Shown here piece by piece: positions 21,064 through 43,125 of a DNA stretch of 64,000 nucleotides. The notes beneath the pieces are model-generated. The model was given only the letters and a program-made list of their open reading frames with translations, was not told the DNA's origin and ran no database searches. The stretch's first letter is position 1. Every line of letters starts with the position of its first letter. Source of the stretch: Halorubrum aquaticum (GTDB taxonomy: Archaea > Halobacteriota > Halobacteria > Halobacteriales > Haloferacaceae); NCBI RefSeq assembly GCF_900113615.1, contig NZ_FOPZ01000004.1, positions 1 to 64,000 of the forward strand. The letters are read 5' to 3'. The position numbers and the translations under genes are program-made.

Positions 21064-21070
21064 TTTATAT
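21064..21070 (+). promoter_or_regulatory. TATA box of the CoA-transferase operon
   Basis: TTTATAT lies 26-32 bases before ATG 21096, giving a leaderless start. The two divergent TATA boxes of the liv and CoA-transferase operons are only about 50 bases apart. Confidence 0.65.
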
Positions 21071-21095
21071 GACACGATCGTAGACGTGAGAGCAC

Positions 21096-22752: not shown

Positions 22753-22848
22753 ACGCGCCACGGGGACGGCGCGGACCGTCTCGGCTCTCGCGACGACGCG
22801 ATCGGCTCTCCCGAAGAAATGACCGGATAGCAACCGTTAAGTGTTCCA

Positions 22849-22853
22849 TTTAA
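22849..22853 (+). promoter_or_regulatory. TATA-like box of the CoA-ligase gene
   Basis: TTTAA, 23-27 bases before ATG 22876, decides this start over the GTG at 22858. Confidence 0.5.
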
Positions 22854-22875
22854 GATCGTGAGGATAGACACACAG

Positions 22876-24498
22876 ATGCAGTCCAACGTCCCGACGGAGT
22901 ACCTGCCAGACGAATCGGACTCGCCGGATTACGTATACCCGATCCCCGAGGCACACTACCCTCGGGAGATCAACACCGCGGACCAGCTCGTCGATCGCCA
23001 CGTCCGCGAGGGCCGGGGAGATAACGTCGCCGTCTACTTCGAGGACGAGACGATCACCTACGAGGAGCTTCAAGAACGGGTCAACCGGATGGGCAACGCG
23101 CTCCGGGAGCTCGGCGTCGAGTCCGGCGACCGGGTCCTGGTGCGGTTCCCGAACCGCCCCGAGCCGGTGATCACGTGTCTCGCCGTCCAGAAGATCGGGG
23201 CCGTCGCCATGCCGTCGATGAAGCTGCTCCGCGCCAAGGAACTCCGGTACATCGTCAACAACGCCGAGGCGACCACGGTCGTCGTCTACGACGACCTGCT
23301 TGACGAGGTGGACGAGGCGCTGCCCGACCTCGACACCGTCGAAGACGTCGTCGTGGCGGAGCGGAACGGGATCGAACACGACCACCGCAGCTACGACGAG
23401 CTGATGGACGCTGCGAGCCCCGAGCTTGAGGCCGCGGACACCGAGCGCGACGACCTCGCGTTGATGCTGTACACGAGCGGCACCACCGGGCGGCCGAAGG
23501 GGGCGATCCACACCCACCGGCAGATGCTCGCGACGGCGGACACGTACGCGCGGTACTGCCTCGAGCCGACCGAGGACGACGTGTTCGGCGGCAACCCGCC
23601 GCTGCCGTTCGCGTACGGGTTCGGCGACCTCGTCACGTTCCCGCTCCGGTTCGGCGCGAGCACGAGCCTGACGCAGGACGCGAGCCCGGGCGACCTGCTC
23701 GAGTCGGTCGAGAACCACGGGATCTCCGTGCTGTGTTCGATCCCGACGGCGTTCAACCAGATGCTCGCGAAGTTCCCCGACGGGCCCGAGGAGTACGACG
23801 TCTCCTCGCTGCGGGTCGGGATGAGCGCCGGCGAGCCGCTGACGCCGACGACGTTCGAGCAGTTCCGCGAGGAGTACGGGATCAAGCTGCTCGACGGGAT
23901 CGGAACCACCGAGATGCTCCACATCTTCGTGAGCCACCATCACGAGGGCGAGGTCGACCCGACGGCGACCGGGTTCCCCGTTCCCGGCTACGAGTGTAAG
24001 ATCGTCGACCCGGACACCGGCGAGGAGTGCGAGCGCGGCGAGCCGGGGATGCTCGCGGTCCGCGGGCCGACCGGCATCGAGTACTGGAACCGTCCGGAGA
24101 AGCAGGACGAGTCGGTCGAGGACGGCTGGTCGTTCCCCGGCGACATCTTCGTCCAGCGGGAGGACGGCCGGCTGGAGTACAAGTCGCGCGCGGACGACCT
24201 CATCGTCTCCAGCGGCTACAACATCCCCGGCCCGGAGGTCGAAGCCGTCGTGGAGGAACACGAGGCCGTCGCCGAGGTCGCCGTCGTGGGCGCACCCCAC
24301 GAGCAGCGCGGCGAGATCGTGAAGGCGTTCGTCGTCACGACCGAGGGGACGACCGGCGACGACGAGCTCGTCGAGGAGATCCAGAACCACGTGAAGAACA
24401 CGCTGGCCCCGTACAAGTACCCGCGTGCGGTCGAGTTCGTCCCGGAACTACCCCGGACCGAGACGGGCAAGATCCGTCGGAAGGAACTGCGCGAGTAG
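22876..24498 (+). CDS. AMP-forming acyl/aryl-CoA ligase (benzoate-CoA ligase-like)
   Basis: This 540-residue adenylate-forming enzyme has the P-loop YTSGTTGRPKG at residues 199-209, PLPFAYGFGDLVTFPL, DGIGTTEMLHIF (A5 motif), DGWSFPGDIF with the adenosine-binding Asp, and the catalytic Lys in PRTETGKIRRKEL. The GFGDL and TEMLHIF stretches resemble benzoate- and aminobenzoate-CoA ligases. It should activate a carboxylic acid, probably aromatic, to its CoA thioester at the cost of ATP to AMP, feeding the paa genes downstream. It ends facing the ferredoxin gene. Confidence 0.85.
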   Translation: MQSNVPTEYLPDESDSPDYVYPIPEAHYPREINTADQLVDRHVREGRGDNVAVYFEDETITYEELQERVNRMGNALRELGVESGDRVLVRFPNRPEPVITCLAVQKIGAVAMPSMKLLRAKELRYIVNNAEATTVVVYDDLLDEVDEALPDLDTVEDVVVAERNGIEHDHRSYDELMDAASPELEAADTERDDLALMLYTSGTTGRPKGAIHTHRQMLATADTYARYCLEPTEDDVFGGNPPLPFAYGFGDLVTFPLRFGASTSLTQDASPGDLLESVENHGISVLCSIPTAFNQMLAKFPDGPEEYDVSSLRVGMSAGEPLTPTTFEQFREEYGIKLLDGIGTTEMLHIFVSHHHEGEVDPTATGFPVPGYECKIVDPDTGEECERGEPGMLAVRGPTGIEYWNRPEKQDESVEDGWSFPGDIFVQREDGRLEYKSRADDLIVSSGYNIPGPEVEAVVEEHEAVAEVAVVGAPHEQRGEIVKAFVVTTEGTTGDDELVEEIQNHVKNTLAPYKYPRAVEFVPELPRTETGKIRRKELRE

Positions 24499-26069: not shown

Positions 26070-26990
26070 ATGCCTACAGAGAAACAGTTGAAAAAGCAGC
26101 TTCAGAACGGCAAGATGATCGAATCCGAGGAGGAGATGACGGAGGGCTACAAGAAGGCCCTGAAGCGGATCCTGCTCGTCTCGGGGGACACCGAGCTGAT
26201 GAGCGCGCCCGCCTACTACGACCAGTCGCTGAACGCGCCCTCGATCGACGCCCGCGCGTCGTGTATCAGCGTCGTCCAGGACGAGCTCGGCCACGGCCAC
26301 ATCGCCTACCGCCTGCTCGAGGACCTCGGCGAGGACCGCCAGGAACTGATCTACGAGCGCGAACCCCACGAGTTCCGGAACACGTACGGGTTCGACCAGC
26401 ATCTCGAGAACTTCGCGGAGCTCGTGACCGCCCACGGCATCTTCGACCGCGCGGGGATGGTCCTGCTCGGCGACATCTACGAGAACACGTCGTACGCGCC
26501 CTGGAAGCGCGCGCTGACGAAAGTCGAGAAGGAGGAGCAGTTCCACCTCCGGCACGGCGAGACGTGGATGCGCCGGCTGTCCAACAAGAGCGACAAGACC
26601 CACGAGCGGCTCCAGGACGCCGTCGACTGGATGTTCCCCATGGGCGTCGAGTGGTTCGGCATGTCCGACGAACAGAAGCGCAACACCGAGCAGCTCGACT
26701 ACCGCATCAAGGGCAAGTCGAACGACGAGCTCAGACAGGACTGGCTCTCGCGGACCCTCCCGCTGATGGAGGAGCTCGACCTCGACGTGCCGGCCCACTA
26801 CGACGAGGAGGCCGACGAGTACGTCCTCGAGTACGACATGCCGGTCGCGTTCGACCAGGAGAACAAGGAGTGGCGCTTCGACGAGCCGATCTCCTGGGAC
26901 GACGTCATCGACCGGTGGCGGAACCGCGGACCGGCCAACGAGAAGTACGTGAACATGATCCAGTCCGGCGAAGTGAGCGTACAGGTGTAA
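26070..26990 (+). CDS. paaA: phenylacetyl-CoA epoxidase-type oxygenase, catalytic subunit PaaA
   Basis: The 306-residue protein matches PaaA in length and carries two ExxH di-iron ligand pairs, E72-L-G-H75 in VVQDELGHGH and E156-Q-F-H159 in KEEQFHLRHGE, plus other carboxylates between. PaaA is the oxygen-activating subunit that epoxidises the ring of phenylacetyl-CoA. It heads an operon with paaD-, paaB-, paaC- and zinc-ribbon genes, each overlapping or nearly touching the next. Another aryl-CoA cannot be excluded: the neighbouring ligase looks benzoate-like, and BoxB proteins, which are longer, are distant relatives. Confidence 0.88.
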   Translation: MPTEKQLKKQLQNGKMIESEEEMTEGYKKALKRILLVSGDTELMSAPAYYDQSLNAPSIDARASCISVVQDELGHGHIAYRLLEDLGEDRQELIYEREPHEFRNTYGFDQHLENFAELVTAHGIFDRAGMVLLGDIYENTSYAPWKRALTKVEKEEQFHLRHGETWMRRLSNKSDKTHERLQDAVDWMFPMGVEWFGMSDEQKRNTEQLDYRIKGKSNDELRQDWLSRTLPLMEELDLDVPAHYDEEADEYVLEYDMPVAFDQENKEWRFDEPISWDDVIDRWRNRGPANEKYVNMIQSGEVSVQV

Positions 26991-26991
26991 C

Positions 26992-27384
26992 ATGTCGACG
27001 AAACAACGAACCGGCGGCACCTCGGGACCGGCTCGGAAAAGCGAGTTCGTCGAGCGGCGTCGATCCGATGCCTCGACCTTCGAGGACCGGTTGTGGGCGG
27101 AACTCGACGAGATCCCGGACCCGCACATCCCGGTGAGCCTCGTCGAGATGGCGATGGTCTACGACGTGTCGGCCGACGACGGCCACGTCGACGTGGAGAT
27201 GTCCTTTCCGTGTATGGGCTGTCCGGCCTACGACATGATCAAGAACGACGTCCGGAGCTGTCTGCGCGTCGTCGACGGCGTCGACTCCGTCGACGTCGAC
27301 GTGGTCTGGGACCCGGTGTGGTCGAAGGACATGCTCACGGAATCGGTGCGTGAGAAGATGCGGAACTCGGGGATCAGCCTATGA
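26992..27384 (+). CDS. paaD: PaaD-type MIP18 (DUF59) protein without its zinc ribbon
   Basis: The 130-residue protein consists of a Ser/Arg-rich tail of about 30 residues and a MIP18/DUF59 domain: LDEIPDPHIPVSLVEMAMVYDV, then FPCMGCPAYDMI and WDPVWSKDMLTESVREKM. PaaD proteins help mature the iron centre of the oxygenase. Bacterial PaaD has a C-terminal zinc ribbon; here the protein ends before it, and a separate gene four positions on (28351-28518) encodes that ribbon. It starts two bases after the paaA stop and overlaps paaB. Confidence 0.85.
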   Translation: MSTKQRTGGTSGPARKSEFVERRRSDASTFEDRLWAELDEIPDPHIPVSLVEMAMVYDVSADDGHVDVEMSFPCMGCPAYDMIKNDVRSCLRVVDGVDSVDVDVVWDPVWSKDMLTESVREKMRNSGISL

Positions 27385-27596
27385 CGGGAACGACGAAGTA
27401 CGCGGTGTTTGGTCGGCGAAACGAGGGGGACGACACCCTCCACCTCGGCACCGTCAGCGCCCACAGCGACCGGCTGGCGAAGACGTACGCGTACAACACC
27501 TACGACGAGGAGGACTGGAACTACCTCGCGGTCGTGCGTGAGGAGGACCTGCTGGAGGTCGAACACGGCAACGTCCGCCGGGAGGTGCCACAATGA
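27381..27596 (+). CDS. paaB: phenylacetyl-CoA epoxidase subunit PaaB
   Basis: This 71-residue protein matches the small PaaB fold: YAVFGRRNEGDDTLHLGTVSAH, AYNTYDEEDWNYLAVVREEDLLEV. PaaB joins PaaA and PaaC in the multicomponent oxygenase and is non-catalytic. Its start overlaps the paaD stop by four bases and its stop overlaps the paaC start by four bases, so synthesis of the three is coupled. Confidence 0.85.
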   Translation: MTGTTKYAVFGRRNEGDDTLHLGTVSAHSDRLAKTYAYNTYDEEDWNYLAVVREEDLLEVEHGNVRREVPQ

Positions 27597-28351
27597 GCGA
27601 GTGGCCCGCGGCGGCCGTCGACTACGTCCAGGCGATCACGGACACGAAGCTCGTGTTGGGCCACCGCTACGCGCAGTGGAGCCTCGCCGGCCCCTCGCTC
27701 GAGGACGACATCGGCGGCTCGAGCGCGGCACAGGAGGAGGTCGGCCACGTCCGACAGCTCTTCCGCAAGCTCGAGTCGCAGGGCCGGGACGGCGACTGGC
27801 TCCGGGGCGACCGAGACCCGGAGGAGTTCGCCAACGCCTCGTGTCTCGACGCGATCGACGGCGACTGGACGGCGTACATGGCCACCATCGCCCCGGTCGA
27901 CCGCGCGGCGTGGTACATGCTCGACGCGATCGACCGCGAGGACATGGAGGGGATGATCACGAAGATGGGCGAGGACGAGTACTTCCATCTGGAGTACCAC
28001 GACGCCCGCCTGGAGACGCTGGCGGCCGAAGACCCGGAGACGCTCCAGTCCACGCTGGAGGAGACGATCCCCTCGGCGCTCGCGCTCGTCGGTCCCGAGG
28101 GACTCGACGACGATCCCCTCGTGGACGCCGGGTTCACGAACCAGTCGGTCGCGGACGTCAGGGAACGGTTCATCGACCACTACCGCGACCTCTTCGCCGA
28201 GACGGACGTCTCGCTGGAGGGTGTCGACTGGGACGCGCCGGACGCGGACGCGTGGGACGAGACCAGACGCCGCGTCGGGGAGGGCGGGGTCAGAGCGGAG
28301 GACCTCGTCCAGATCCGCGGGGAACGCAACGCCGAGTTCGCGATCGAGTGA
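27593..28351 (+). CDS. paaC: phenylacetyl-CoA epoxidase structural subunit PaaC
   Basis: The 252-residue ferritin-like protein aligns in style with PaaC: LVLGHRYAQWSLAGPSLEDDI, SAAQEEVGHVRQLFRKL, ISSUED in this form by EDEYFHLEYHDARLETL and ending with VQIRGERNAEF. PaaC pairs with PaaA as the structural, non-catalytic subunit that helps bind the CoA substrate. It is translationally coupled to paaB and to the next small gene. Confidence 0.87.
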   Translation: MSEWPAAAVDYVQAITDTKLVLGHRYAQWSLAGPSLEDDIGGSSAAQEEVGHVRQLFRKLESQGRDGDWLRGDRDPEEFANASCLDAIDGDWTAYMATIAPVDRAAWYMLDAIDREDMEGMITKMGEDEYFHLEYHDARLETLAAEDPETLQSTLEETIPSALALVGPEGLDDDPLVDAGFTNQSVADVRERFIDHYRDLFAETDVSLEGVDWDAPDADAWDETRRRVGEGGVRAEDLVQIRGERNAEFAIE

Positions 28352-28518
28352 TGAGCGACTCCGAGGACCCGACCGTCGAGTGTCCGCACTGCGGGTCGGC
28401 CGACGTCGACAAGGAGTCGGCGTTCGGCAGCGAGATCTCGAAGACGCAGTACTACTGCAACGGCTGTCACACCGTCTTCGAGCGGATCAAGTACGACGGG
28501 AAACAGCCCGGCGAGTGA
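28351..28518 (+). CDS. free-standing zinc ribbon equivalent to the PaaD C-terminus
   Basis: The 55-residue product contains one zinc ribbon, CPHCGSAD ... YYCNGCHTVFERIK, preceded by VDKESAFGSEISKTQ. Bacterial PaaD ends in a very similar CPxCGS...FGS...YxCxxCxxPF domain, so this appears to be the missing ribbon of the paaD product encoded by its own gene. The start overlaps the paaC stop (TGATG). No other domain is present. Confidence 0.8.
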   Translation: MSDSEDPTVECPHCGSADVDKESAFGSEISKTQYYCNGCHTVFERIKYDGKQPGE

Positions 28519-28651: not shown

Positions 28652-29494
28652 ATGAAATCGTTCAGCGAGCTGGATCTAGAGTATTTCCAGACTGACCTGG
28701 AGGACCACGTCGGAACCATTCGCCTCGACCGCCCGCCGGCGAACGCGCACAACATCGACGTGTTGCTCGAGTTACAGCGCGTGGTCGAGACGGTCCGGTT
28801 CGACGAGAGCGTCCGCGCGGCGCTGTTCGGCAGCGCGAGCGAGAAGTTCTTCTCGACCGGCTTCGACATCAAGGAGCTCCAGAGCGAGTCCGGCAAGCAG
28901 GTCGGCTACGCGAGCCAGACGAGCAAGGAGATCATCATGAAGATGCGGACGACGGACACCATCTTCATCGCGATGGTGAACGGTCACTGCATGGGCGGCG
29001 GCCTGGAGCTCGCGCTCGCGTGTGACTTCCGGTTCGTCGGCGACGACGACGGCTACAACGTCGGCATGCCCGAGATCCACCTCGGCCTCATCGCCGGCGA
29101 GGCGGGCACCCAGCTGCTCCCGCGCTACATCGACCGGTCGACCGCGCTGAAGATGATGATCACCGGCGAGACGCTCACGCCGGCGGAGGCGACCGAGCGG
29201 GACATCTTCGACGAGATCCACCCGCCCGACGAGGTCGAGGACGCCGCCCGCGAGTTCGCCGAGCAGATCGTCGAGAAGTCCCACATGGCCGTCGGCCACA
29301 ACAAGCTGGCCGTCAACGAGGGGCTCGAACTGCCGCTCTGGGACGCGCTCGCACACGAGCGGGAGCTCCAGAACCGGCTTCTCGGCTCCGACGTGGCGAA
29401 GGAGGGCGTCGACGCCTTCCTCGGCGACCACGACCCCGACTTCCTCGGCGTCGAACTCGGCGACAAGGAGCCGGGCGCGCCCGACGAGGAGTAG
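28652..29494 (+). CDS. enoyl-CoA hydratase/isomerase (possible PaaG/PaaF)
   Basis: From ATG 28652 the 280-residue crotonase has IRLDRPPANAHNIDVLLEL, FFSTGFDIKELQ, NGHCMGGGLELALACDFRFV and EIHLGLIAGEAGTQLLPRYI. In a paa setting it may be the ring-isomerising PaaG (1,2-epoxyphenylacetyl-CoA to oxepin-CoA) or the hydratase PaaF; I cannot decide from motifs alone. CATACATATACG, 24-35 bases upstream, serves as promoter, so it is not strictly part of the paaA operon. Confidence 0.88.
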   Translation: MKSFSELDLEYFQTDLEDHVGTIRLDRPPANAHNIDVLLELQRVVETVRFDESVRAALFGSASEKFFSTGFDIKELQSESGKQVGYASQTSKEIIMKMRTTDTIFIAMVNGHCMGGGLELALACDFRFVGDDDGYNVGMPEIHLGLIAGEAGTQLLPRYIDRSTALKMMITGETLTPAEATERDIFDEIHPPDEVEDAAREFAEQIVEKSHMAVGHNKLAVNEGLELPLWDALAHERELQNRLLGSDVAKEGVDAFLGDHDPDFLGVELGDKEPGAPDEE

Positions 29495-29503
29495 CGCCCC
29501 GAT

Positions 29504-30658
29504 TCAGAGGCCGAGCGCCTCGCCCGCGACCGTCGTCTTCTGTATTTCCGTCGTACCGCCGATGATGCTCAGGATCTTCGCGTCCCGGTAGTACCGCTCC
29601 AGGGGGAGGTCCGTGCGGTATCCCTTCCCGCCGTGGACCTGGATCGCGTTTCGCGTGACGAACTCGGCGGCCTCGCTGGCGACGTACTTCGCCTTGCTCG
29701 AGGTCCGGGTGTCGCCCTCACCGTCGGCGATCGCCTTCGCGGAGTCGTACACCAGGTGGCGCGCGCCGTCGAGCTCGGCGTCCATGTCCGCGACGAGCAC
29801 CTGGACCGCCTGGTAGTTCCCGACCGGCTGGCCGCCCTGTTCGCGGTCGCCCGCGTACGCGATGGCCTGATCGAAGGCCGCGCGCGCGATGCCGGTCCCG
29901 ATCGCCCCGAGGCCGGTCCGGGCCATGTCGATGGTGCCCATGGCGATCCGAAAGCCCTGGCCGACCTCGCCGAGCAGCGCATCGTCGGCGACGCGCACGT
30001 CCGAGAGGGTGGAGTCGCCGGTGACGTGGCCGCGCATCCCCATGAACTCGACGCGGTCGAACGCGAACCCGTCCCGATCGTCGGTGCCGGGCACGAGGAA
30101 GACGCTGACGCCGTGTCCGTCCTCGGGGGCGGGCTTCTTCCGGGCGACGACGAGGTGGAGGTCGGCGACGCCCGCGTTCGTCCCGAACGACTTCTCGCCG
30201 GAGAGCAGGTACCCCTCGTCGTCGGCGACCGCGACGGTCGACAGCTCGCTCGGCGAACTGCCGGCGTCGGGCTCGGTGAGCAGCATCGATCCGACCGTCT
30301 CGCCGCGCGCCATGGGTTCGAGGTACCGTTCCTTCTGGTCGTCCGTGCCGAACTCGGCGACGGGGAGCGCGGCGAAGGTGTGGCCCTGGATCGTCTCGGC
30401 GACCGCGCCCGACGCCTCGGCGATCCGCTCGACCGCGAGACAGTACGAGAGGAAGTCGGACCCCTCGCCGCCGTACGCCTCCGGGAGGAGGATCCCGAGC
30501 AGCCCCCGGTCGCCCGCCTCCTCGATCACCTCCCGCGGGAACTCGTCGGTGCGTTCGATGCGGTCGGCCGCCGGTTCCACGACCTCGGTCGCGAACGCCG
30601 CGGCCCGGTCCCGTATCTCGCGATGCTCGTCGGTGAGCGCGCTCTCGATGAGGCTCAT
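29504..30658 (-). CDS. acyl-CoA dehydrogenase without the usual C-terminal catalytic Glu
   Basis: The 384-residue flavoprotein has the ACAD blocks LLTEPDAGSSPSELST, YLLSGEKSFGTNAGVADL, AIQVHGGKGYRTDLPLERYYRDAKI and IGGTTEIQKTTVAGEALGL. In short/medium-chain enzymes the motif is YEGTxEIQ with Glu as base; here it reads IIGGTTEIQ, with Gly in its place. Long-chain and isovaleryl types use a Glu on another helix; the matching stretch here is GTIDMARTGLGA with Asp. It should oxidise an acyl-CoA at C2-C3, but the base is uncertain. It converges on the enoyl-CoA hydratase gene. Confidence 0.87.
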   Translation of the reverse strand: MSLIESALTDEHREIRDRAAAFATEVVEPAADRIERTDEFPREVIEEAGDRGLLGILLPEAYGGEGSDFLSYCLAVERIAEASGAVAETIQGHTFAALPVAEFGTDDQKERYLEPMARGETVGSMLLTEPDAGSSPSELSTVAVADDEGYLLSGEKSFGTNAGVADLHLVVARKKPAPEDGHGVSVFLVPGTDDRDGFAFDRVEFMGMRGHVTGDSTLSDVRVADDALLGEVGQGFRIAMGTIDMARTGLGAIGTGIARAAFDQAIAYAGDREQGGQPVGNYQAVQVLVADMDAELDGARHLVYDSAKAIADGEGDTRTSSKAKYVASEAAEFVTRNAIQVHGGKGYRTDLPLERYYRDAKILSIIGGTTEIQKTTVAGEALGL

Positions 30659-33534: not shown

Positions 33535-34704
33535 ATGCGAGACGCGTATGTGCTCGGAGCCGGGCAGTCGTCGTTCGGCTCGTTTCCGGAGGAGACGTAC
33601 CTCTCCCTGTTCGACGACGCCTTCGACGCGGCGCTCGACAGCGTCGACGGCGAGTTCGACCCGGGAGCGATAGATGAGGCGTACCTCGGCACCCTCGGCG
33701 TCGGCGGCCGCCAGATCGGGTTGAGCGGCCCCGCGGTGACCGAACACCTCGGGCTCCACGGCGTGCCGACGACGCGCGTGGAGAACGCGTGTGCCGCGAG
33801 CGGCTTCGCCTTCCGGCAGGCGGTCACCGCCGTCAAGTCGGGGGTCGTCGACGTCGCGCTCGCCGGCGGCTACGAGGTGATGACCGACGCCAGCTCCGAC
33901 CACACCCGGTGGTGGCTCGGCGTCAGCGGCGAGACCGAGTGGGAGCGCACGAGCGGCACGACGTTCGCCGGGGTGTACGCCCAGATGGCGAGCGCGCACA
34001 TGGACGAGTACGGGACGACCGCCGAGGACCTGAGCCGCGTCGCCGTGAAGAACCACGGGAACGGGGCGAAGAACCCGAAGGCGCACCTCGGGTTCGAGTG
34101 TTCGCTCGAGGACGCGGTCTCCGCGCCGAGCGTCGCCGACCCGCTGAACCTCTATCACTGCTGTCCGACGACCGACGGCGCGAGCGCGGTGCTCGTCGCG
34201 AGCGAGGAGGTCGCCCGCGAGGCGAGCGACGCGCCGGTCCGGGTCGCCGGCGCGGGCGCGGCCAGCGGACGGGTCGGGCTGTTCCAGCGCGAGTCGCTGA
34301 CGAGCATTCCGGCGAGCGTCAGCGCGGGCGAGGCGGCCTACGAGCAGGCGGGGATCGGCCCCGACGACCTCGACTTCGCGGAGGTACACGACTGTTTCGC
34401 CATCGCCGAGCTGCTCGCCTACGAGGACCTGGGGTTCTGTGAGCGCGGCGAGGCCGGCCGGCTCCTCCGGGAGGGCGTCACCGACCCCGACGGCGAGCTG
34501 CCGACGAACACGAGCGGCGGCCTCAAATCGAAGGGTCACCCGATCGGCGCGACCGGAACCGGCCAGATCGTCGAGGCGTTCAAACAGCTCCGCGGGGAGG
34601 CGTACGTCCAGGTCGACGACCCGCAGTACGGGCTGACGCACAACGTGGGTGGAAGCGGGGGCGGCGTCACCGTCCACGTGCTCGAACGGGGTGAGTCGGC
34701 GTGA
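33535..34704 (+). CDS. thiolase (SCP2/acetyl-CoA acetyltransferase type)
   Basis: The 389-residue thiolase has nucleophile Cys86 in RVENACAASG, HDCFAIAELLAYEDLG, GGLKSKGHPIGATG with the catalytic His, and a C-terminal HNVGGSGG where many bacterial thiolases have CxG. This form pairs with DUF35 OB-fold proteins in archaea. The next gene, overlapping by four bases, supplies a DUF35 domain. Together they probably cleave or condense a 3-oxoacyl-CoA, for example 3-oxoadipyl-CoA in a paa pathway. The upstream alcohol dehydrogenase is 73 bases away. Confidence 0.88.
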   Translation: MRDAYVLGAGQSSFGSFPEETYLSLFDDAFDAALDSVDGEFDPGAIDEAYLGTLGVGGRQIGLSGPAVTEHLGLHGVPTTRVENACAASGFAFRQAVTAVKSGVVDVALAGGYEVMTDASSDHTRWWLGVSGETEWERTSGTTFAGVYAQMASAHMDEYGTTAEDLSRVAVKNHGNGAKNPKAHLGFECSLEDAVSAPSVADPLNLYHCCPTTDGASAVLVASEEVAREASDAPVRVAGAGAASGRVGLFQRESLTSIPASVSAGEAAYEQAGIGPDDLDFAEVHDCFAIAELLAYEDLGFCERGEAGRLLREGVTDPDGELPTNTSGGLKSKGHPIGATGTGQIVEAFKQLRGEAYVQVDDPQYGLTHNVGGSGGGVTVHVLERGESA

Positions 34705-36137
34705 GGGGGATCGCCGCCGCCGGGGCGTACGTGCCCCGATTCCGGCTCCCGGGCGACGAGATCGCGATCGCGTGGGGGACGAGCCACGCGAGCGGGATCG
34801 AGCGGAAGGCCGTGCCCGCCGCCGACGAGGACGCCCTGACGATGGCCGTCGAGGCGGCCGAGCGCGCGCTCTCGAGCGACGCGGTCGACCGGGACGAGCT
34901 GACGCTCGCGACCGCGGCGACGACGACGCCCCCGACCGAGGAGGGCGAGTTGCTCCCGCGGCTCGCGCGGGCGCTCGACCTCCCCCGGTCGGTGGCGACG
35001 GCGACGGTCGGCGGCCACACGGCGGCCGGGGCCGAGGCGCTCTCGCGGGCGCTCGACGCCGAGGGGCCGGCCCTCGTCGTAGCCGCCGACGCTCCGGAGG
35101 GCGAGCCGGCCGAGGGGGACCACCCGCTCGGCGCCGGCGCTGCGGCGTTCGTCGTCGCCGACGACGCGTCCGCGCCGGTAACGGAGACCGCCTGGCACAC
35201 CGAGGAGACGCCCGGCGTCCGGTTCCGCGAGCGGGGCGGGCGCGACGTGGAGTCGCTCGACGTCACGACCTACCAGCGGAACGCGATCCGCGAGGCCGTC
35301 ACGAGCGCGGCGGCGTCGCTGGCGCTCGATCCGGCCGACGCCGACGCCGCAGCGGTCCACCAGCCGGACGGGCGGTTCCCGTACCGGGCGACCGCGGACC
35401 TCCCGGTCTCCAACGAGGCGGTCGCGGCGGGAACCGTCGTCGACCGGATCGGCGACGCCGGTGCCGCCACGGTCCCGCTCGGGCTGCTCGCCGCCCTCGA
35501 CGCCGGAAGCGGTGACGGTGGAGACGCCGACGCGGAGGCCGGCGGCCGATCGCTCGCGGCCTTCTTCGGCGGCGGCACCGCGGTCGCGGTCGCGGTCGAG
35601 GGCGGCCTCGACGTCGAGGGGATCGACGATCTCGAGGGCGGGACCGAGATCGACTACGCGTCGTACCTCCGCGAGCGGGGGTACGTCGTGAACGGCGAGG
35701 TCGCCGGCGGGGGCGCGCACGTCAGCCTCCCGAACTGGCGGCGCTCGCTGGACCAGCGCTACCGCCTCGTCGCCGGCGTCTGTCCCGACTGCGGCGGCGT
35801 CTCGTTCCCGCCGGAGGGGGCCTGTCAGTCGTGTCACTCGCGGGTCGAGTTCGAGGAGTTCGAGGCCCCGCGGACCGGGACGGTCCGCGCGCTGACGGTC
35901 ATCGGCCAGGGCGGCGCGCCGCCGGAGTTCGCGGAGCTCCAGCAGCGCGACGGCGCGTACGCCGTGGCGATCGTCGAGCTCGACGCCGAGGCGGGGCGCG
36001 TCCGCCTCCCCGCGCAGGTCACCGACGCGGACCCGGCGGACGTCGCCGTCGGCGACGAGGTGCGGGCGACGGTCCGCCGGATCTACGAGCAGGAGGGCGT
36101 TCCCCGCTACGGCGTCAAGTTCGAGCCGACGGCGTGA
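34701..36137 (+). CDS. HMG-CoA synthase-like domain fused to a DUF35 zinc-ribbon/OB-fold domain
   Basis: The 478-residue protein (GTG start overlapping the thiolase stop) has an N-terminal thiolase-fold region of the HMG-CoA synthase type (GIAAAGAYVPRFRLP, ATAATTTPPTEEGELLPRLA). A rubredoxin-like zinc ribbon follows with Cys361, Cys364, Cys375 and Cys378, then an OB fold to the C-terminus. The synthase part contains no Cys at all before residue 361; the expected nucleophile loop reads ATVGGHTAAG. It cannot use the normal acyl-Cys mechanism and is probably a scaffold that channels CoA intermediates with the thiolase. Its last 31 bases overlap the convergent gene. Confidence 0.8.
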   Translation: MRGIAAAGAYVPRFRLPGDEIAIAWGTSHASGIERKAVPAADEDALTMAVEAAERALSSDAVDRDELTLATAATTTPPTEEGELLPRLARALDLPRSVATATVGGHTAAGAEALSRALDAEGPALVVAADAPEGEPAEGDHPLGAGAAAFVVADDASAPVTETAWHTEETPGVRFRERGGRDVESLDVTTYQRNAIREAVTSAAASLALDPADADAAAVHQPDGRFPYRATADLPVSNEAVAAGTVVDRIGDAGAATVPLGLLAALDAGSGDGGDADAEAGGRSLAAFFGGGTAVAVAVEGGLDVEGIDDLEGGTEIDYASYLRERGYVVNGEVAGGGAHVSLPNWRRSLDQRYRLVAGVCPDCGGVSFPPEGACQSCHSRVEFEEFEAPRTGTVRALTVIGQGGAPPEFAELQQRDGAYAVAIVELDAEAGRVRLPAQVTDADPADVAVGDEVRATVRRIYEQEGVPRYGVKFEPTA

Positions 36138-37057
36138 TCGCCGGGACGGGTCCGGTACTCGACCGGGTCGTCCCCGCAGCGTTCGACCGCGCCGATCGCC
36201 TCGAGCCGTCTGAGGTGTGCGGACGCCTCGCCCGCGCCGAACTTCGCGTGTATCCCCGCCATCTCGCCGAACAGTTGCTTCGCGACCGTCCACGGCGTGG
36301 CCGCGCCCGCCGCGGGAAGCGCGTCGACGACCCGTCGAGCGCGCTCGCGGTGGTGTTCGCGGACCGACGCCGCCTCGCGCGTCACGTCGACCGTCGTCCC
36401 GTGGCCGGGCTCGCCGCGGTCGAAGGCGTCGTCGACGCGGTCGACGGAGCGGAGGTACGCCGCGAGCGGGTCGTCGGTCCGCGTGTCGCTCCCGCCGACG
36501 TTCGGCGTGTACGTCGGCAACAGCAGGTCGCCGAGGAAGGGCGTGTCACGGTACGCGAAGGCGGCGTGGCCCGCGGTGTGGCCGGGCGTGGCGAGCGCCT
36601 CGACGCCCGCGACGACGTCCCCGTCTGACAGCTCGCGGACGTCGTACACGTCGGGAAGCGGCGAGGGGCGGTCCGCCTCGACGAGCGCGGTCCGCACCGT
36701 CTCCGGCACGCCCCACCGGCGGAGCGCGTCGGCGTCGCGCTCGAGCCTGCGGGCGCGTTCGTCCGCGTACGACGCGACGAGCGGGGCGTCGGCCGCGTGC
36801 ATGGCGATCCGGGCGTCCGCGGCCTCGGCGAGCCGGGTCGACAGCCCGGCGTGGTCGGCGTGCCAGTGGGTCACGAGCACGTGGTCGACGTCCGCCAGCA
36901 CGAGGCCGGCGTCGTCGATCCCCGCGCACAACGCCGCCCACGGCTCGTCTCCCGGCGGTCCGGGATCGATGACGACCCCCGCATCGGGGAGGACGTACGC
37001 GCCGTTGACGCCCTCGGGCGAGCCCGTTCCGACGGCGACGCGCACCGCGTCCGTCAC
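36107..37057 (-). CDS. metallo-beta-lactamase-fold hydrolase with C-terminal winged helix
   Basis: The 316-residue protein has the MBL metal motif THWHADHAG, then ATPGHTAGHAAF, a GDLLLP metal Asp and EPGHGTTVD. After about residue 230 a helical tail (TPWTVAKQLFGE ... AHLRRLEAIGAVER) resembles the winged helix of LACTB2-type proteins. It may hydrolyse a thioester, lactone or phosphodiester. It starts at GTG 37057, overlapping the upstream UbiD-like stop by four bases, so it is the last gene of the UbiD operon. That context makes a CoA-thioesterase role plausible but unproven. Confidence 0.82.
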   Translation of the reverse strand: MTDAVRVAVGTGSPEGVNGAYVLPDAGVVIDPGPPGDEPWAALCAGIDDAGLVLADVDHVLVTHWHADHAGLSTRLAEAADARIAMHAADAPLVASYADERARRLERDADALRRWGVPETVRTALVEADRPSPLPDVYDVRELSDGDVVAGVEALATPGHTAGHAAFAYRDTPFLGDLLLPTYTPNVGGSDTRTDDPLAAYLRSVDRVDDAFDRGEPGHGTTVDVTREAASVREHHRERARRVVDALPAAGAATPWTVAKQLFGEMAGIHAKFGAGEASAHLRRLEAIGAVERCGDDPVEYRTRPGDHAVGSNLTP

Positions 37058-38499
37058 GCGCCGTCACCCCCGGACGCGAGGTCGTCGCTCCCCGTCGACG
37101 ACGGCCCGCCCTCGGGTTCATCGTCCGCCGTGAGCGACTCCCACCGCTCGAGCGCGGACTCGCGGACGCCATCCGGGAAGGAGGACTCGAAGGTGACCCG
37201 CGGCGCGATGTAGTCCTCGTCCCACCGGGGGTCCCAGATGGCGCTGATGTACAGCCGCGATCCGGTCGCCCCGTCACGGCGGTAGACCGGCGCGGTCGCC
37301 GCCGGGGCGTTTGGGTCGCTGAACACCCAGTCGTTGCCCGGATGCGCCTTCACCCACATGTCGTCGAGCGCACGGGCGAGGTCGGTCGGCCGCGCGTACT
37401 CGTCCAACACGAGCACCTTGTCGAAGTAGTCGGAAAACGAGAACAGCGCGTTCGCGAGCTGCCAGTCGAAGCCGGCGTACAGGATCTCACTCGAGACGAG
37501 ACAGAGGCCGAGCCGGCTCTCGACGGGGAGCTGTACCCACGACACCGGCGAAACCCCCCAGTAGCCGTTGACGCGGCGGTACAGCGTCGCCGCCTCGACG
37601 AGGCTCATCAGGTGGACGTCGTCCGCGAGCGGCGCGCCGAGCGGGACGAACGGCACCGTCGGGTCCTCCCGGAGCCGGATCCCCTCGGCCTCGAACGAGA
37701 GCGTGGCGGTCTCGGTCGCCCGCTCCCAGGTCGCCTCCGGGCCGGACACCGGCTCGTCGGTCGGGGCGGCGACGCCGTCGATCCGCACCTCCGCGCTCGC
37801 CGGCACGATCCGCCCGTCGACCCGTGCGAGCGGGACGTCCGCGAGCCCGGCGGCGCGCTCCGGCACGGCGGGGACGGTCCGGTCCTGCGTCCACCCCTGA
37901 AGCGCGGCGACGAGCGTCGCCGCCTCGACGCCGAGGGACACGCTCGCGGCCTGCCCGCCCTCGAACCACTCGCCGACGGCGCGGGGAACGACCACTCTGA
38001 GCGTCGAGCCGCGGTGAACGGTGCCCCGGACCGGAGCCCACGTCGTGGTGTCGTCGCGCTCGACCGCGACGATGCCCTGAGTGACCCCCTGTCTCCCGTC
38101 GTCGTCGACGCCGGGGAGGCCGAGCGCGTAGAGGTCGTCCCCGGCGTCACGGTCGGCGGCCGGGTCGAGAGAGACCGCGTCCGCGAGCGGGGTCGTCTCC
38201 CATCGCGAGAGCACGTCGAGTAAGTCGACGCAGCCGACGTCGTGGCCGAGCCCGAGCCCGGCGGCGATCCGTCGCCACGGACGGTTCTCCCGTCCGGAGA
38301 TCTGGTCGGGACCGGCGTAGACGCCGCTCGCGTACGCGACCCGACCCGCGGTCTCGTCGAACCGGAGCGCGGCGCAGTTGTGTGCGAGCGCCTCCGTCGC
38401 GACGACCGCCGCCTCGGTGTCCCAGTGGACCCGCGACCCGATCTCGAGGAGGTCGTCCCGCTCCCGGAGGTCGGCGAGGTGTTCGGAGAGGGTCGTCAC
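37054..38499 (-). CDS. UbiD-like protein with a degenerate active site
   Basis: From GTG 38499 the protein has 481 residues and follows the UbiD layout: a start similar to its neighbour (LSEHLADLRERDDLLEI), NRPWRRIAAGLGLG, FEGGQAASVSLGVEAA and FDWQLANALFSFSDYFDKVLVLDEY near the end. The prFMN/catalytic block that reads DEGPFGDYFGY in the neighbour is replaced by DEPVSGPEATWERA, so the catalytic Glu-x-Pro-Phe-Gly is gone. I infer a non-catalytic subunit partnering the intact UbiD encoded just upstream, whose stop overlaps this start. The last 25 residues are Ser/Gly/Asp-rich. Confidence 0.75.
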   Translation of the reverse strand: MTTLSEHLADLRERDDLLEIGSRVHWDTEAAVVATEALAHNCAALRFDETAGRVAYASGVYAGPDQISGRENRPWRRIAAGLGLGHDVGCVDLLDVLSRWETTPLADAVSLDPAADRDAGDDLYALGLPGVDDDGRQGVTQGIVAVERDDTTTWAPVRGTVHRGSTLRVVVPRAVGEWFEGGQAASVSLGVEAATLVAALQGWTQDRTVPAVPERAAGLADVPLARVDGRIVPASAEVRIDGVAAPTDEPVSGPEATWERATETATLSFEAEGIRLREDPTVPFVPLGAPLADDVHLMSLVEAATLYRRVNGYWGVSPVSWVQLPVESRLGLCLVSSEILYAGFDWQLANALFSFSDYFDKVLVLDEYARPTDLARALDDMWVKAHPGNDWVFSDPNAPAATAPVYRRDGATGSRLYISAIWDPRWDEDYIAPRVTFESSFPDGVRESALERWESLTADDEPEGGPSSTGSDDLASGGDGA

Positions 38500-39998
38500 G
38501 GCTCGACCTCCGCCGGATCGATCCCCGGCAGTCCCTCGGGGCTCGCGCCGGCCTCGACGAGCAGGGTCCGCGCCCAGTACCGCGTCTCCTCGTCGGCCAC
38601 CTCCGCGGCCGCCTCCGCGTCGTCGTCGCGGTCGCGGGTGGCGTCGATGTACGCCTTGGCGGTCTTGGCCTTCGAGGTGCCCGTCTGGGCGTTCCCCTTC
38701 TCGTCGGGCGTCTGGTAGATGTTGAGCGGCACCTTCGGCATCGACGCGACGCCGAACTGGTGGAAGTCCTCGTCGGGGTCCGCGTGTAGCGCGAGCGCCT
38801 CCAGCACGGCGCGCTGGTCGAGCGGGTCGACGTCGCCGTCGACGAACACGAAGAAGTCGACGTGGAGCATGCCCCAGGTGGTGAAGATGAAGTTCGCCAG
38901 GTCGTGGAGCTCGCCGGGGTCCGTCGCGTCGGTCGAGATGACGTAGACGGTCCGCGGCGTCGACTGCCAGGGGACACAGCGGTCCACGTCGAACCCGCCG
39001 GCGCGCAGCCCGAGCGTCGCGTCCGGCCCGACACAGCCGATCTCCATCGAGCTGGTGGAGTTCTCCGTGTGCCCCACGCCCGTCCCCTCGACACAGAACG
39101 GGATGATCGGGTCCGCCCGGCGGGTGATCGCCGTCACCTCGAGGGCGGGCATCGACCGCCGCGGCCCGTGCATGTAGCCGAAGTAGTCCCCGAATGGCCC
39201 CTCGTCGCGGCGCACGCCGGGAACGATCTCGCCCTCGATGACGAGCTCCGCGTCGGCCGGGACGAGGAGGTCGTTCGTCTCGCAGGGCACCACGTCGATC
39301 GGAGTGCCCTTCAGACCGCCGGCGAAGGAGACCTCGTTTCTGCCCGTCGGGATCCACATCACCGAGCTGTACTGTACCGCCGGGTCGGCCCCGACGACGA
39401 TGGCGACCGGCATCGGCTCGTCGCGCCGCTCGTACTTGTAGTAGAAGAGGTTCGGCGTCTGCTCGCCGGCGAGCAGGAGCACGCTCGCGGTCCGGCTGTC
39501 GTGGACCATCACGCGGTGATACGAGTAGTCGATCCACTCCGAGTCGGGGTCCGGTGCCACGAGCGTGTGGAGGTTCGAGTACCGCCCGCCGTCGCCCGCG
39601 TGGATGTACGGCCACGGGTAATCGAGCAGGTCCACCTCCTCGCCCGTCTCTTTCACCTCCTTACACGGCGCGTCGGTCCGGTCGACCGTCTCCGGCGGCC
39701 GCTGCTCTTTGAGCCGCCGGATCGTCTCGTCGTAGAACTCCCGGCTCGAGGCGTCCGGAGGGATGTCCATCCCGAGGGCGATCCGGTCCCACGGGCGGCG
39801 CTGTGAGCCGCGGTAGGGGTCCCCCACGAGCCGCGCGCCGTCCGCCGACTCGAAGAAGGGGATGGGGCCGTCGTTCTCGTTCGCGAGCATCGTGAGCGCG
39901 CTCGCCTCCAGGTTCCACGACACGGGCTCGTCGACGCGCACGAGTTCGTCCCGCGCCTCGATCCGCCGGAGGTACCCGCGGAAGCCGTCGACCGTCAT
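38496..39998 (-). CDS. UbiD family prenylated-FMN-dependent (de)carboxylase
   Basis: From ATG 39998 the protein has 500 residues and the full UbiD pattern: GDPYRGSQRRPWDRIALGMDIP, VPADAELVIEGEIVPG, DEGPFGDYFGYMHGPRRS with the catalytic Glu residues, and EIGCVGPDATLGLRAGG. It should decarboxylate (or carboxylate) an unsaturated or aromatic acid using prenylated FMN; no UbiX prenyltransferase is in the window. It is coupled at both ends: its start overlaps the small upstream gene by four bases and its stop overlaps the degenerate UbiD gene. Its place beside the aromatic-acid genes suggests an aromatic substrate. Confidence 0.9.
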   Translation of the reverse strand: MTVDGFRGYLRRIEARDELVRVDEPVSWNLEASALTMLANENDGPIPFFESADGARLVGDPYRGSQRRPWDRIALGMDIPPDASSREFYDETIRRLKEQRPPETVDRTDAPCKEVKETGEEVDLLDYPWPYIHAGDGGRYSNLHTLVAPDPDSEWIDYSYHRVMVHDSRTASVLLLAGEQTPNLFYYKYERRDEPMPVAIVVGADPAVQYSSVMWIPTGRNEVSFAGGLKGTPIDVVPCETNDLLVPADAELVIEGEIVPGVRRDEGPFGDYFGYMHGPRRSMPALEVTAITRRADPIIPFCVEGTGVGHTENSTSSMEIGCVGPDATLGLRAGGFDVDRCVPWQSTPRTVYVISTDATDPGELHDLANFIFTTWGMLHVDFFVFVDGDVDPLDQRAVLEALALHADPDEDFHQFGVASMPKVPLNIYQTPDEKGNAQTGTSKAKTAKAYIDATRDRDDDAEAAAEVADEETRYWARTLLVEAGASPEGLPGIDPAEVEP

Positions 39999-40492
39999 CC
40001 GCCGTCGCTCCCGCCGGTCAGTTCGCGTTGCTCGCGCTGTACCTTCAGATCGACGTACTCGTTGACGAGTTCCGGGTAGCGCTCGGAGAGGTGCTCGTAC
40101 ATCACCTTGCGGCTGGCCTCCGAGATGGACGAGTAGACGCCGACCTCGACGAGATACGCCAGGAGCGTCTTCACCTCGTCGGAGCGCGTGTTGATCACGT
40201 TCGCGCCCTCGGCGGTCTCCTCCATCACCCGTTCGAGCGTCTCCCTGTCGACCCCCTCCGCGTCGATGTCGGTCTCCAACACCTCGATGTACCACTGTTC
40301 CTCGGTGTTCTCGTGGGGACCGCTGACGACCGTCAGCGGGACCGGGTCGGACAGCTCCGCCGCGTCCCGACTCACGTACGCTCGCGTGCTGAAGATCTCC
40401 TTCGTCTCGGCGTCGGTCACCTGAATGCTGACCTCCCCCTGTTCGGGATCGGGCGGGAGGTTGGTCTCGGACGTGACGTATTCGTCGGGCAT
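39995..40492 (-). CDS. unknown 165-residue protein leading the UbiD operon
   Basis: I do not recognise this family. The first 60 residues look beta-rich (EVSIQVTDAETKEIFSTRAYVS). The second half is helical, and VKTLLAYLVEVGVYSSISEASRKVMYEHLSERYPEL resembles the helices of ribbon-helix-helix-like proteins (first 20 of these residues are the most similar part). No Cys, signal peptide or membrane segment is present. It overlaps the intact UbiD gene by four bases, so it is probably a subunit or assembly partner. Small accessory subunits are known for some UbiD systems (VdcD, LpdD), but I see no clear match. Confidence 0.7.
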   Translation of the reverse strand: MPDEYVTSETNLPPDPEQGEVSIQVTDAETKEIFSTRAYVSRDAAELSDPVPLTVVSGPHENTEEQWYIEVLETDIDAEGVDRETLERVMEETAEGANVINTRSDEVKTLLAYLVEVGVYSSISEASRKVMYEHLSERYPELVNEYVDLKVQREQRELTGGSDGG

Positions 40493-40574: not shown

Positions 40575-42353
40575 TCACGGCGACGCGTCGGCGCTGACGA
40601 CGTCCCACTCCGAGGGGTCGACGACGGACGCCTCGAGGGCGTCGTGTTCGGGATATGCGGTGAACACGAGGTACTCCGCCCGTCCGTCGAGGTACTCGAC
40701 GAGCGTCGAGAGGTTCCCCGCGGAGAGCCCGCCGAGCCGGTCGAGAAGCAGGACTGGGACGTCCTCGCCGACCTCGAACGCCTCGTGGCCGGCCAGCGCG
40801 GCGACGATCCCGAGCAGCTCCAGTTCCCCCTCGCTCAGCGCGTCGAGCGAGGCGGTCCGGCCGTCACGGGCGACGACCAGCTCGAACTCGCTCGTCAGCC
40901 GCGCGGTCTCGAAGCTCGTGTCGAACCGCTCGAGGAGGTCGGCGATCGCCTCGTCGAACGCCTCGCGCGTCCGGCGTTTCATCTCGGTCTTCCGGTTCCG
41001 TAGCTCCTCGATCTCCTCGCTCAGCGCCTCCCGCTCGTCCGCCAGCGTCGAGCGTTTGTCGGCGCGACGCTCCAGGTCCTCCAGCTCCTCGCGGCGCTCC
41101 TCGAGTTCGGTCTCCACCCGCGCGAGGTCGCTCGCGACGTCCGTGACCTCCTCGTCGCGCTCGGCGACCGTCTCCTCGAGCGACTCGATCCGCCCATCGA
41201 GCTCCGAGCGGTGATCGCGCGCGGACTCGAGGCTCTCCTCGCGGTCGGCCAGCTTGGCCTCGAGGTCGCCGATCCGGCGGTCGAGCTCGTCGCGACGCTT
41301 CGTCGCGTCCCGGATCCGGTCGCGGCGTTCCTCGAGCTCCTCCACGCGGTCGTCGTACTCGGCGCGCTCGGCGGTGAGCTCGGAGATGCGGTCGCTGAGG
41401 TCCTCGAGGCGCTCGCGGAGGCTCTCCTCGTCGGTCTCGGTCCCGCAGAGCCAGCAGGCGACGTCGTCGCCGAGCAGCCCGCGGTCGCGGTCGGTGAGCA
41501 GTTCGACGCGGCCCTCCGTCAGCACCCGGCGGTTCGCGGAGTAGACGGCCCGCAACAGTTCCACGTCGGTTCGGATCGACTCCCGACGGTCACGGATCCG
41601 CGAGAGCTCCTCGCTTACGTCCTCCTCGGGCACCGTGAGCGACTCGCGCTCCTCGCGGAGTTCGGCCAGCGTCCCCTCGATGCGCTCGACCGCGTCGGAG
41701 AGGCGGTCGACCCGCCGTTCGGTGCGGGAGCGTTCCGCGCGCAGGCGACTCAGCTCCTCGCGTTCGGCCTCCTCGCCGTCGGCGTCGTCCGGCTCCGTGA
41801 GCGACTCCCGGCGCTCTCTCAGCTCCTCCAGCCGGGCGTCGAGCCGGGTCACCTCCTCCTGGACCGACGGGAGCCGGCTCGCGGCGTCCTCGGCATTCGA
41901 CAGCTCGGCGTCGACGCTCGACCGCTCGGACCGTAGCTCGGCGATCCGCTCCTCGATGTTCTCGAACTCCAGCGGCCGGGTCAACAGGTCCGCGAGGTCC
42001 TCGCCGCGGCGGACCGCGTCGCGGATCGCGTTGTCCTCGTCGAGGAACGCGTACAGGTCCGCCCGGATCCGGTCGTACTCGTCGGAGAGCAGTCCGGACC
42101 CGCTGCTGACGACGGTTCCGTCCCGTCGCTCCAGTTCGACGACGTGGGTCCCGTCGGGGGTCTCGAGTTCGACCCGGCCCGCGTCGGCGTTCTCGGTGAG
42201 CGGCGCGGCCGTTCCCATGGCCGTCTCGATGGCCTGGAGGAAGCTCGACTTTCCCTGCCAGTTCGCGGCGCGCACGACGTTGTTCCCTGGGTCGATCCTC
42301 GCGGACCCCTCGCGGATGCCGGCGACGTTCTCGATCGTGAGCTCCCAACCCAT
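40575..42353 (-). CDS. archaea-specific SMC-related (Sph/Rad50-like) ATPase
   Basis: The 592-residue protein has ATPase halves at the two ends, a long Arg/Glu-rich coiled coil between (about residues 125-500) and a zinc-hook-like CWLCG near residue 306. Walker A is unusual (ANWQGKSS, lacking the first Gly), the signature region is SEGELELLGIVAAL, and Walker B reads VPVLLLDRLGG with Arg after the Asp. This matches haloarchaeal SMC-related proteins found next to rdfA. It is divergent from rdfA, with 82 bases between starts. It may act in chromosome organisation or cell-shape control; the altered motifs make ATP turnover uncertain. Confidence 0.83.
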   Translation of the reverse strand: MGWELTIENVAGIREGSARIDPGNNVVRAANWQGKSSFLQAIETAMGTAAPLTENADAGRVELETPDGTHVVELERRDGTVVSSGSGLLSDEYDRIRADLYAFLDEDNAIRDAVRRGEDLADLLTRPLEFENIEERIAELRSERSSVDAELSNAEDAASRLPSVQEEVTRLDARLEELRERRESLTEPDDADGEEAEREELSRLRAERSRTERRVDRLSDAVERIEGTLAELREERESLTVPEEDVSEELSRIRDRRESIRTDVELLRAVYSANRRVLTEGRVELLTDRDRGLLGDDVACWLCGTETDEESLRERLEDLSDRISELTAERAEYDDRVEELEERRDRIRDATKRRDELDRRIGDLEAKLADREESLESARDHRSELDGRIESLEETVAERDEEVTDVASDLARVETELEERREELEDLERRADKRSTLADEREALSEEIEELRNRKTEMKRRTREAFDEAIADLLERFDTSFETARLTSEFELVVARDGRTASLDALSEGELELLGIVAALAGHEAFEVGEDVPVLLLDRLGGLSAGNLSTLVEYLDGRAEYLVFTAYPEHDALEASVVDPSEWDVVSADASP

Positions 42354-42435
42354 AGCGGCCCTTCGTAGCGGCCGCGTTAAGTTTTACTACTGCGGAACCC
42401 GACGGTCGGGTAACCGATGCGAGGACCCCAACCGC

Positions 42436-43125
42436 ATGAGTTGTAAGATCGACGCCGCGATCGACGAGTACGGGGTCGACGTCGCCCAGTCGGGGTACGA
42501 CGGCGTCGACGACTACCTGCTCCGGCGGTGGCGCGGCGACGACGGCCGGTCGGCCGACGGCTACCGGACGCTGACCGACTGGTTCAACAAGCGCCTGCTC
42601 AAGCGGGTGTACGACGAGCACAACCGCGAGGCGACGGGCGTCCGGCTCGAGGGCGAGTACGAGGCGCTGCGGTCCGACGACGACCTCGTCCGCCGGGAGG
42701 TCGCCGACGACCTCCGAGGGGACGGGATCGAGGTCGAGGAACTGACCGCGAGCATGCCCTCGTGGAGCACGATGCGCCACCACCTGAACGACTGTCTCGA
42801 GGGGTCGAAACCGACTGAGACGGCGACCTCGGAGTGGGAACTCGAGAGCGTCCGGATCGCCGCCGACCGCGCCGCGGAGAAGGCCGAGAAGGCGGTGGGA
42901 TCGCTGGCTTCGAAGGGGGAACTCGCGGACGGCGACGACGTCGAGATCGACGTCGACATCCAGTTGACCTGCCCCGTCTGTCACGTCCGGACCCCGTTCC
43001 GGGAGGCCGTCGACCGCGGGTACGTCTGTCGGGAACACGCGGAGAGGGAACGGGCGGAGGGGATCGACGGGGACGCGAGCGTGGAGGAAGCCGCGAACGC
43101 GGGCGCGAACGGCGACCGCTCGTAA
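42436..43125 (+). CDS. rdfA: rod-determining factor RdfA
   Basis: The 229-residue protein begins MSCKIDAAIDEYGVD and has the features of RdfA from Haloferax: GYRTLTDWFNKRLLKRVYDEH, a central SMPSWSTMRHHLNDCLEG segment, and a C-terminal zinc-binding region CPVCHVRTPF ... YVCREH. RdfA is needed for rod formation in Haloferax volcanii. The acidic tail (last 25 residues) is low complexity. The gene is divergent from the SMC-related gene, the arrangement known for this factor. A TTTTACT element about 48-55 bases upstream may be the promoter. Confidence 0.85.
   Translation: MSCKIDAAIDEYGVDVAQSGYDGVDDYLLRRWRGDDGRSADGYRTLTDWFNKRLLKRVYDEHNREATGVRLEGEYEALRSDDDLVRREVADDLRGDGIEVEELTASMPSWSTMRHHLNDCLEGSKPTETATSEWELESVRIAADRAAEKAEKAVGSLASKGELADGDDVEIDVDIQLTCPVCHVRTPFREAVDRGYVCREHAERERAEGIDGDASVEEAANAGANGDRS

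Follow-up and report, generated by a model that had tools for sequence, protein, structure and literature searches.

UbiD enzymes catalyze the C–H carboxylation and decarboxylation of aromatic and unsaturated acids, a chemistry thought to depend on prenylated flavin mononucleotide (prFMN) made by UbiX. UbiX is the conserved partner of UbiD enzymes, and the characterized members of the family use prFMN (PMC10865409). Here, we describe an operon that encodes two UbiD-family proteins (UbiD1 and UbiD2), a small protein, and a metallo-beta-lactamase (MBL)-fold hydrolase, found in a 64,000-nucleotide stretch of Halorubrum aquaticum (contig NZ_FOPZ01000004.1, positions 1 to 64,000), which we call the window. 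The genomes that carry the first three of its genes (hereafter the trio) possess no UbiX, and the active site of UbiD1 is altered where prFMN and its metal would be bound. On the sequences compared here, we put it at about an even chance that what the operon encodes is a UbiD heteromer specific to haloarchaea and independent of UbiX, together with a probable regulator.

The best reference points are the single-subunit prFMN decarboxylases Fdc1 and HudA. In AnFdc1, residues N168, H191, E233, and K391 are the Mn2+ ligands; the cofactor is bound by Q190 and is associated with R173, E277, and E282 (PMC4947166). The E282D variant is still active, an acid being required at 277 and 282 for decarboxylation (PMC5818171), and the C-terminal domain of HudA is its dimerization domain (PMC7976604). 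Phenylphosphate carboxylase (PpcABCD) and the phenylphosphoamidate carboxylase of Desulfatiglans anilini contain two UbiD-like subunits. In D. anilini these are ~52% identical, Mn2+ is required, the genome has a ubiX-like gene, and flavin mononucleotide (FMN) is reported to be sufficient in place of prFMN (PMC7500099). The N47 naphthalene carboxylase has several UbiD-like subunits and yields a carboxylic acid that is passed to a CoA ligase (PMC12016498). The operons of the non-oxidative decarboxylases VdcBCD and LpdBCD pair a UbiD protein with a small accessory protein, and include a chaperone for reduced prFMN (prFMNH2), LpdD. The B subunit of these enzymes is a UbiX homologue.

The operon lies on the minus strand of the window and is transcribed in the order small protein, UbiD1, UbiD2, MBL-fold hydrolase:

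39995-40492, minus strand, small protein (165 aa, ATG start, first gene of the operon)
38496-39998, minus strand, UbiD1 (500 aa, ATG start, full-length UbiD-family protein)
37054-38499, minus strand, UbiD2 (481 aa, GTG start, degenerate UbiD)
36107-37057, minus strand, MBL-fold hydrolase (316 aa, GTG start, HxHxDH motif intact as THWHADH)

Stop and start codons overlap by four bases at all three junctions (ATGA, GTGA, and GTGA), as a first, sequence-only reading of the window had pointed out. The same reading suggested that a system of this composition may be undescribed, and our literature search of open-licence PMC papers likewise found no matching paper. The source genome is haloarchaeal, 3.18 Mb in size and 99.5% complete, with a single copy each of UbiD1, UbiD2, and the small protein; Halorubrum cibi DSM 19504 is a close relative (99% over UbiD2).

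To place the operon, 394 Halobacteria genomes were compared; they are mostly drafts, and the gene calls are our own. Around each locus, genes were called with a codon-usage model, proteins were clustered, and gene order was mapped. The small protein, UbiD1, and UbiD2 form a fixed trio in 86 genomes: UbiD2 has matches in 89, 86 of them strong, and the small protein is found in 86, the same genomes. Of 87 loci, 85 have the three genes in an unbroken row. An overlap of exactly 4 bases joins the UbiD1 and UbiD2 genes in 69 loci, out of ~81 in which both genes were called in full, and the small-protein and UbiD1 genes overlap by 4 bases in 45 loci. Because both overlaps recur across loci, the 4-base arrangement is no product of chance. 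Ratios of nonsynonymous to synonymous substitution rates (dN/dS) range from 0.05 to 0.24 across the three trio genes. When ~85,000 species genomes were scanned, all 65 UbiD2 loci recovered were in Halobacteria; this pattern-based scan detected no carriers among bacteria or other archaea, though distant ones could escape it.

The idea that all four genes are conserved together therefore holds for the trio and fails for the MBL gene, which occurs within ~10 kb in 34 of the 87 loci only. That count does not support the hydrolase as part of the UbiD system in which the sequence-only reading had placed it. A role as a fourth subunit was rejected on the same grounds, and the MBL gene is best regarded as an optional passenger of the operon.

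The distribution of UbiX is the strongest clue to the cofactor. UbiX (TIGR00421) is above its cut-off in 32 of the 394 Halobacteria genomes, and the UbiD domain PF01977 is present in 118. These 118 divide exactly, with zero overlap, into the 86 trio genomes, none of which has UbiX, and 32 non-trio genomes, all of which have it. The chance of such a split would be ~1e-29 if genomes were independent, and relatedness makes the true figure larger; the same division is also seen inside single genera (e.g., our genera g1, g6, and g27). Outside Halobacteria, a sample from the rest of the phylum gave a UbiX match in 144 of 144 UbiD genomes (142 above cut-off), and all nine UbiD-bearing control genomes had one as well. 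The genome of Haloferax volcanii, also used as a control, contained neither UbiX nor a UbiD domain. One might suspect a UbiX that is hidden in a draft assembly or too divergent to be recognized. We rejected this after a permissive search with the Flavoprotein domain (PF02441), in which the source genome and 40 other trio genomes each gave exactly one gene; in the source genome it reads as CoaBC, and the others lie nearly all in CoaBC-size frames.

UbiD1 has all three UbiD domains (PF20695, PF01977, and PF20696) over cut-off, with E = 2.9e-66 for PF01977, and its profile matches HudA with E = 2.3e-62. It is like Fdc1 and HudA in fold and in its E-R-E/D network. Residue equivalences were assigned by sequence alignment, that of K391 by alignment to a Trichoderma Fdc. 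The equivalents of R173, E233, E277, the G-P-x-G motif, and D282 are kept in 43 of 43 diverse UbiD1s; in the source protein the E-R-D network (R162, E266, and D271) and E222 are present. Unlike Fdc1 and HudA, UbiD1 has its ligands for Mn2+ and the prFMN phosphate replaced, is always paired with UbiD2, and occurs without UbiX. Five replacements are fixed in all 43 sequences (H191 to Q, Q190 to E, A172 to H, P226 to W, and K391 to W), and the remodelled positions at the cofactor and metal end of the source protein (H161, E179, Q180, W215, and W375) are invariant. The N168 equivalent varies across the 43, so that E233 alone is retained among N168, H191, E233, K391, and Q190. Among haloarchaeal UbiDs linked to UbiX, all but one retain N168 together with H or D at 191, and the cassette UbiD1s form a single clade apart from them (support 100/100). 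Since the replacements are invariant, the acid network is kept, and the cassette UbiD1s are one clade, the alignments argue that this pocket is rebuilt and fixed, not decaying.

The sequence-only reading had proposed a prFMN enzyme, a dependence that finds no support in the lack of UbiX in 86 of 86 trio genomes and the loss of three of the four AnFdc1 Mn2+ ligands from UbiD1. With no prFMN synthase in the trio genomes and a rebuilt phosphate and Mn2+ end of the site, UbiX-made prFMN is probably not the cofactor; unmodified FMN would be the first candidate. That a widespread haloarchaeal UbiD branch abandoned prFMN altogether, with UbiD1 working on plain FMN or another cofactor in an obligate complex with a pseudo-UbiD, is a tentative proposal that falls just short of an even chance. 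Three points should make one cautious about it. HudA, which is a genuine prFMN enzyme, carries S where N168 aligns and H near K391; a neighbouring D or E, such as the conserved E179 next to Q180, could hold a metal; and an unrecognized source of prFMN in the trio genomes is conceivable. Since two of the positions, N168 and K391, also differ in HudA, most weight falls on the changes of H191 to Q and Q190 to E.

The likeliest alternative, in line with the sequence-only reading, is a conventional heteromeric UbiD, with UbiD1 an ordinary (de)carboxylase and prFMN coming from a non-orthologous enzyme or some other source. The equivalents of R173, E277, D282, and E233, kept in 43 of 43 UbiD1s, would fit this, as does the use of prFMN by characterized UbiD enzymes (PMC10865409). 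We nevertheless consider it unlikely, given that UbiX is missing throughout the trio genomes with no second Flavoprotein-domain gene in the 41 tested, that the H191 and Q190 equivalents are invariantly replaced and those of N168 and K391 lost, and that, among the mapped neighbours of the 87 loci, no gene that might serve in prFMN maturation accompanies every trio.

If UbiD1 does work independently of UbiX, the trio would be a natural, genome-wide exception to the UbiX–UbiD rule, and a phylogenetically broad, UbiX-less clade with a rebuilt site would permit a direct test of UbiD chemistry without prFMN. The trio also offers a test of what a pseudo-UbiD subunit does.

UbiD2 is that putative subunit. 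Pfam searches found UbiD_C in it (2.4e-12), with UbiD_N just under cut-off and no match to PF01977. Alignment bears out the suggestion that it has no E-x-P-F-G block: the E-G-P-F-G-E/D block and the metal ligands are missing, E233, E277, and E282 are not conserved, and the prFMN ligands are thus not retained. The UbiD fold itself is kept, with the AlphaFold2 (AF2) model matching HudA (E = 3.2e-23; template modelling (TM) scores of 0.62–0.70) and the profile matching Fdc1 (8.3e-22); the best single-sequence match in the PDB is ShVdcC (7ae4). UbiD1 and UbiD2 are ~24–29% identical where matched. Near-invariant positions make up 33% of the C-terminal domain of UbiD2 versus 9% elsewhere. With dN/dS of 0.08–0.24 and this conserved C-terminal domain, a decaying pseudogene can be ruled out. 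By these measures, purifying selection acts on UbiD2, and its conserved positions cluster in what corresponds to the oligomerization domain.

Part of the original proposal, a heteromeric prFMN (de)carboxylase, thus stands and part does not. A UbiD1–UbiD2 heteromer is the simplest reading, because the two are always co-encoded and translationally coupled and UbiD2 keeps mainly its oligomerization domain; the prFMN component is what finds no support. In such a complex, UbiD1 would be the catalytic subunit, acting through its E-R-D acid-base network, and UbiD2 a pseudo-UbiD partner forming the oligomer via its conserved C-terminal domain. One could instead imagine UbiD1 as a homodimeric enzyme and UbiD2 as a separate pseudoenzyme that acts independently as a sensor or scaffold within that pathway, as its missing catalytic residues would allow. 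Both the 4-base coupling (69 loci) with contiguity (85/87) and the concentration of UbiD2 conservation in the oligomerization domain fit a stoichiometric partner better, and we judge separate proteins quite improbable.

By analogy, the nearest precedent for the UbiD1–UbiD2 heteromer would be the two-UbiD-subunit enzyme of D. anilini, since trio loci also co-encode two UbiD-like proteins (85/87), as does phenylphosphate carboxylase. Unlike in D. anilini, the trio partners share ~24–29% identity, UbiD2 has lost the catalytic block, and none of the trio genomes carries UbiX. Phenylphosphate carboxylase differs as well: scores against its TIGR02723 and TIGR02724 equivalogs were 147 (cut-off 565) and 110 (cut-off 469). 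Its delta subunit is a phosphatase, and no phosphatase-like gene was found among the conserved neighbours of trio loci. The N47 naphthalene carboxylase resembles the trio in its multiple UbiD-like subunits and its link to a CoA ligase, but it belongs to an anaerobic bacterium, has a different set of subunits, encoded in a nine-gene cluster with four UbiD-like members, and is proposed to use prFMN.

The small protein has no curated family over cut-off. Its AF2 model (mean predicted local distance difference test score, pLDDT, 83.7) shows an N-terminal beta domain (strands within residues 5-74) and C-terminal helices, of which residues ~97-138 resemble a ribbon-helix-helix (RHH) domain. Foldseek matched the model to the RHH protein SegB with probabilities of 0.96 and 0.91 and TM(target) of 0.64 and 0.66 over ~70 columns. 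Some members of the family match ParD (0.0023) and the haloarchaeal regulator CdrS (0.0021), both weakly. Any likeness to SegB, ParD, and CdrS would lie in the C-terminal part, to which the small protein adds its N-terminal beta domain. An invariant R103 and a near-invariant N101 recall the N-x-R strand of Arc. The model makes an RHH regulator a reasonably probable identity, and a DNA-binding role is more likely than that of a catalytic subunit; the protein would be an autoregulator with an N-terminal domain of its own. Weighing on the other side are the RHH sequence matches, which stay under family cut-offs with no Pfam RHH match, and the 87 upstream regions of the small gene, where inspection by eye revealed no evident shared operator, solely clade-level promoter-like conservation. 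Alternatives in the manner of VdcBCD and LpdBCD (an LpdD-like chaperone, VdcD, or UbiX) were rejected, as family searches and Foldseek gave no sequence or fold match, and unlike those systems the trio genomes have no UbiX.

One genome with several copies (G214) has a small-protein gene away from any UbiD gene (locus L090), and a further UbiD1–UbiD2 pair with no called small gene (L108). Because one copy stands alone and one pair lacks it, the protein acting in trans would fit.

The surroundings of the operon in the window include the following features:

22876-24498, plus strand, benzoate-CoA-ligase-family acyl-CoA synthetase (TIGR02262, 392.8 bits, cut-off 375)
26070-28518, plus strand, PaaA/PaaD/PaaB/PaaC-like di-iron acyl-CoA oxygenase group (TIGR02156, 131 bits; PaaD_haloarch, 107)
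28652-30658, enoyl-CoA hydratase (plus strand) and acyl-CoA dehydrogenase (minus strand)
33535-36137, plus strand, thiolase and HMG-CoA-synthase-like/OB-fold protein, convergent with the operon

An acyl-CoA ligase or acyl-CoA dehydrogenase is found within ~10 kb in 85 of the 87 loci, and two main contexts can be distinguished. In type I (35 loci, including the source genome), the trio, often followed by the MBL gene, lies beside a PaaA/PaaC/PaaD-like di-iron oxygenase operon with an enoyl-CoA hydratase, an acyl-CoA dehydrogenase, and a benzoate-CoA-ligase-family synthetase. In type II (43 loci), the trio is accompanied by an acyl-CoA synthetase, an acyl-CoA dehydrogenase, a biotin carboxylase, a carboxyltransferase, and a MaoC hydratase. 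The Paa-like proteins score under the equivalog cut-offs (TIGR02156, 131 vs. 280 bits; PaaD_haloarch, 107 vs. 180 bits), so by sequence the group is a relative of phenylacetyl-CoA epoxidase and not necessarily that enzyme; the operon at 26070-28518 possibly encodes an acyl-CoA oxygenase of other specificity.

We infer that the complex would carry out a (de)carboxylation, in one direction or the other, that would supply or remove a carboxylate alongside the adjacent acyl-CoA ligase and acyl-CoA dehydrogenase. Type I, as in the source genome, would feed the Paa-like di-iron acyl-CoA oxygenase route, and type II the biotin carboxylase/MaoC hydratase route. Both contexts are beta-oxidation-like, and together with the rebuilt and fixed cofactor-end residues this could instead point to another reaction in acyl-CoA catabolism, such as isomerization or hydration of an acyl intermediate. 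The strictly kept E-R-D network speaks against this, acids at 277 and 282 being needed for decarboxylation in Fdc1 (PMC5818171), and such a reaction seems to us very unlikely. On the (de)carboxylase reading, the locus would tie a previously unannotated regulator and UbiD pair to haloarchaeal aromatic and acyl-CoA catabolism.

At two haloarchaeal loci (L160 and L161), UbiX-linked UbiD genes likewise have Paa-like, ferredoxin, and GNAT genes as neighbours. UbiDs that depend on UbiX and those without it may therefore contribute to similar pathways, each in different species.

Within the window, 34701-36137 is one gene, in which an HMG-CoA-synthase-like domain is fused to a ChsH2-type zinc ribbon/OB-fold domain; it converges on the MBL gene, their 3' ends overlapping by 31 bases. 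The region 12147-24498 forms a larger acyl-CoA catabolic island, with a 3-hydroxyacyl-CoA dehydrogenase and enoyl-CoA hydratases by family match, and a branched-chain-amino-acid type ABC transporter and CoA-transferase-like subunits by sequence inspection. On the other side, 40575-43125 adjoins the cassette and includes the gene for ASRP, an SMC-related protein specific to archaea (459 bits vs. a cut-off of 300). A gene divergent from it putatively encodes the rod-determining factor RdfA. ASRP stands beside 8 of the 87 cassette loci, and the RdfA-like gene beside 9.

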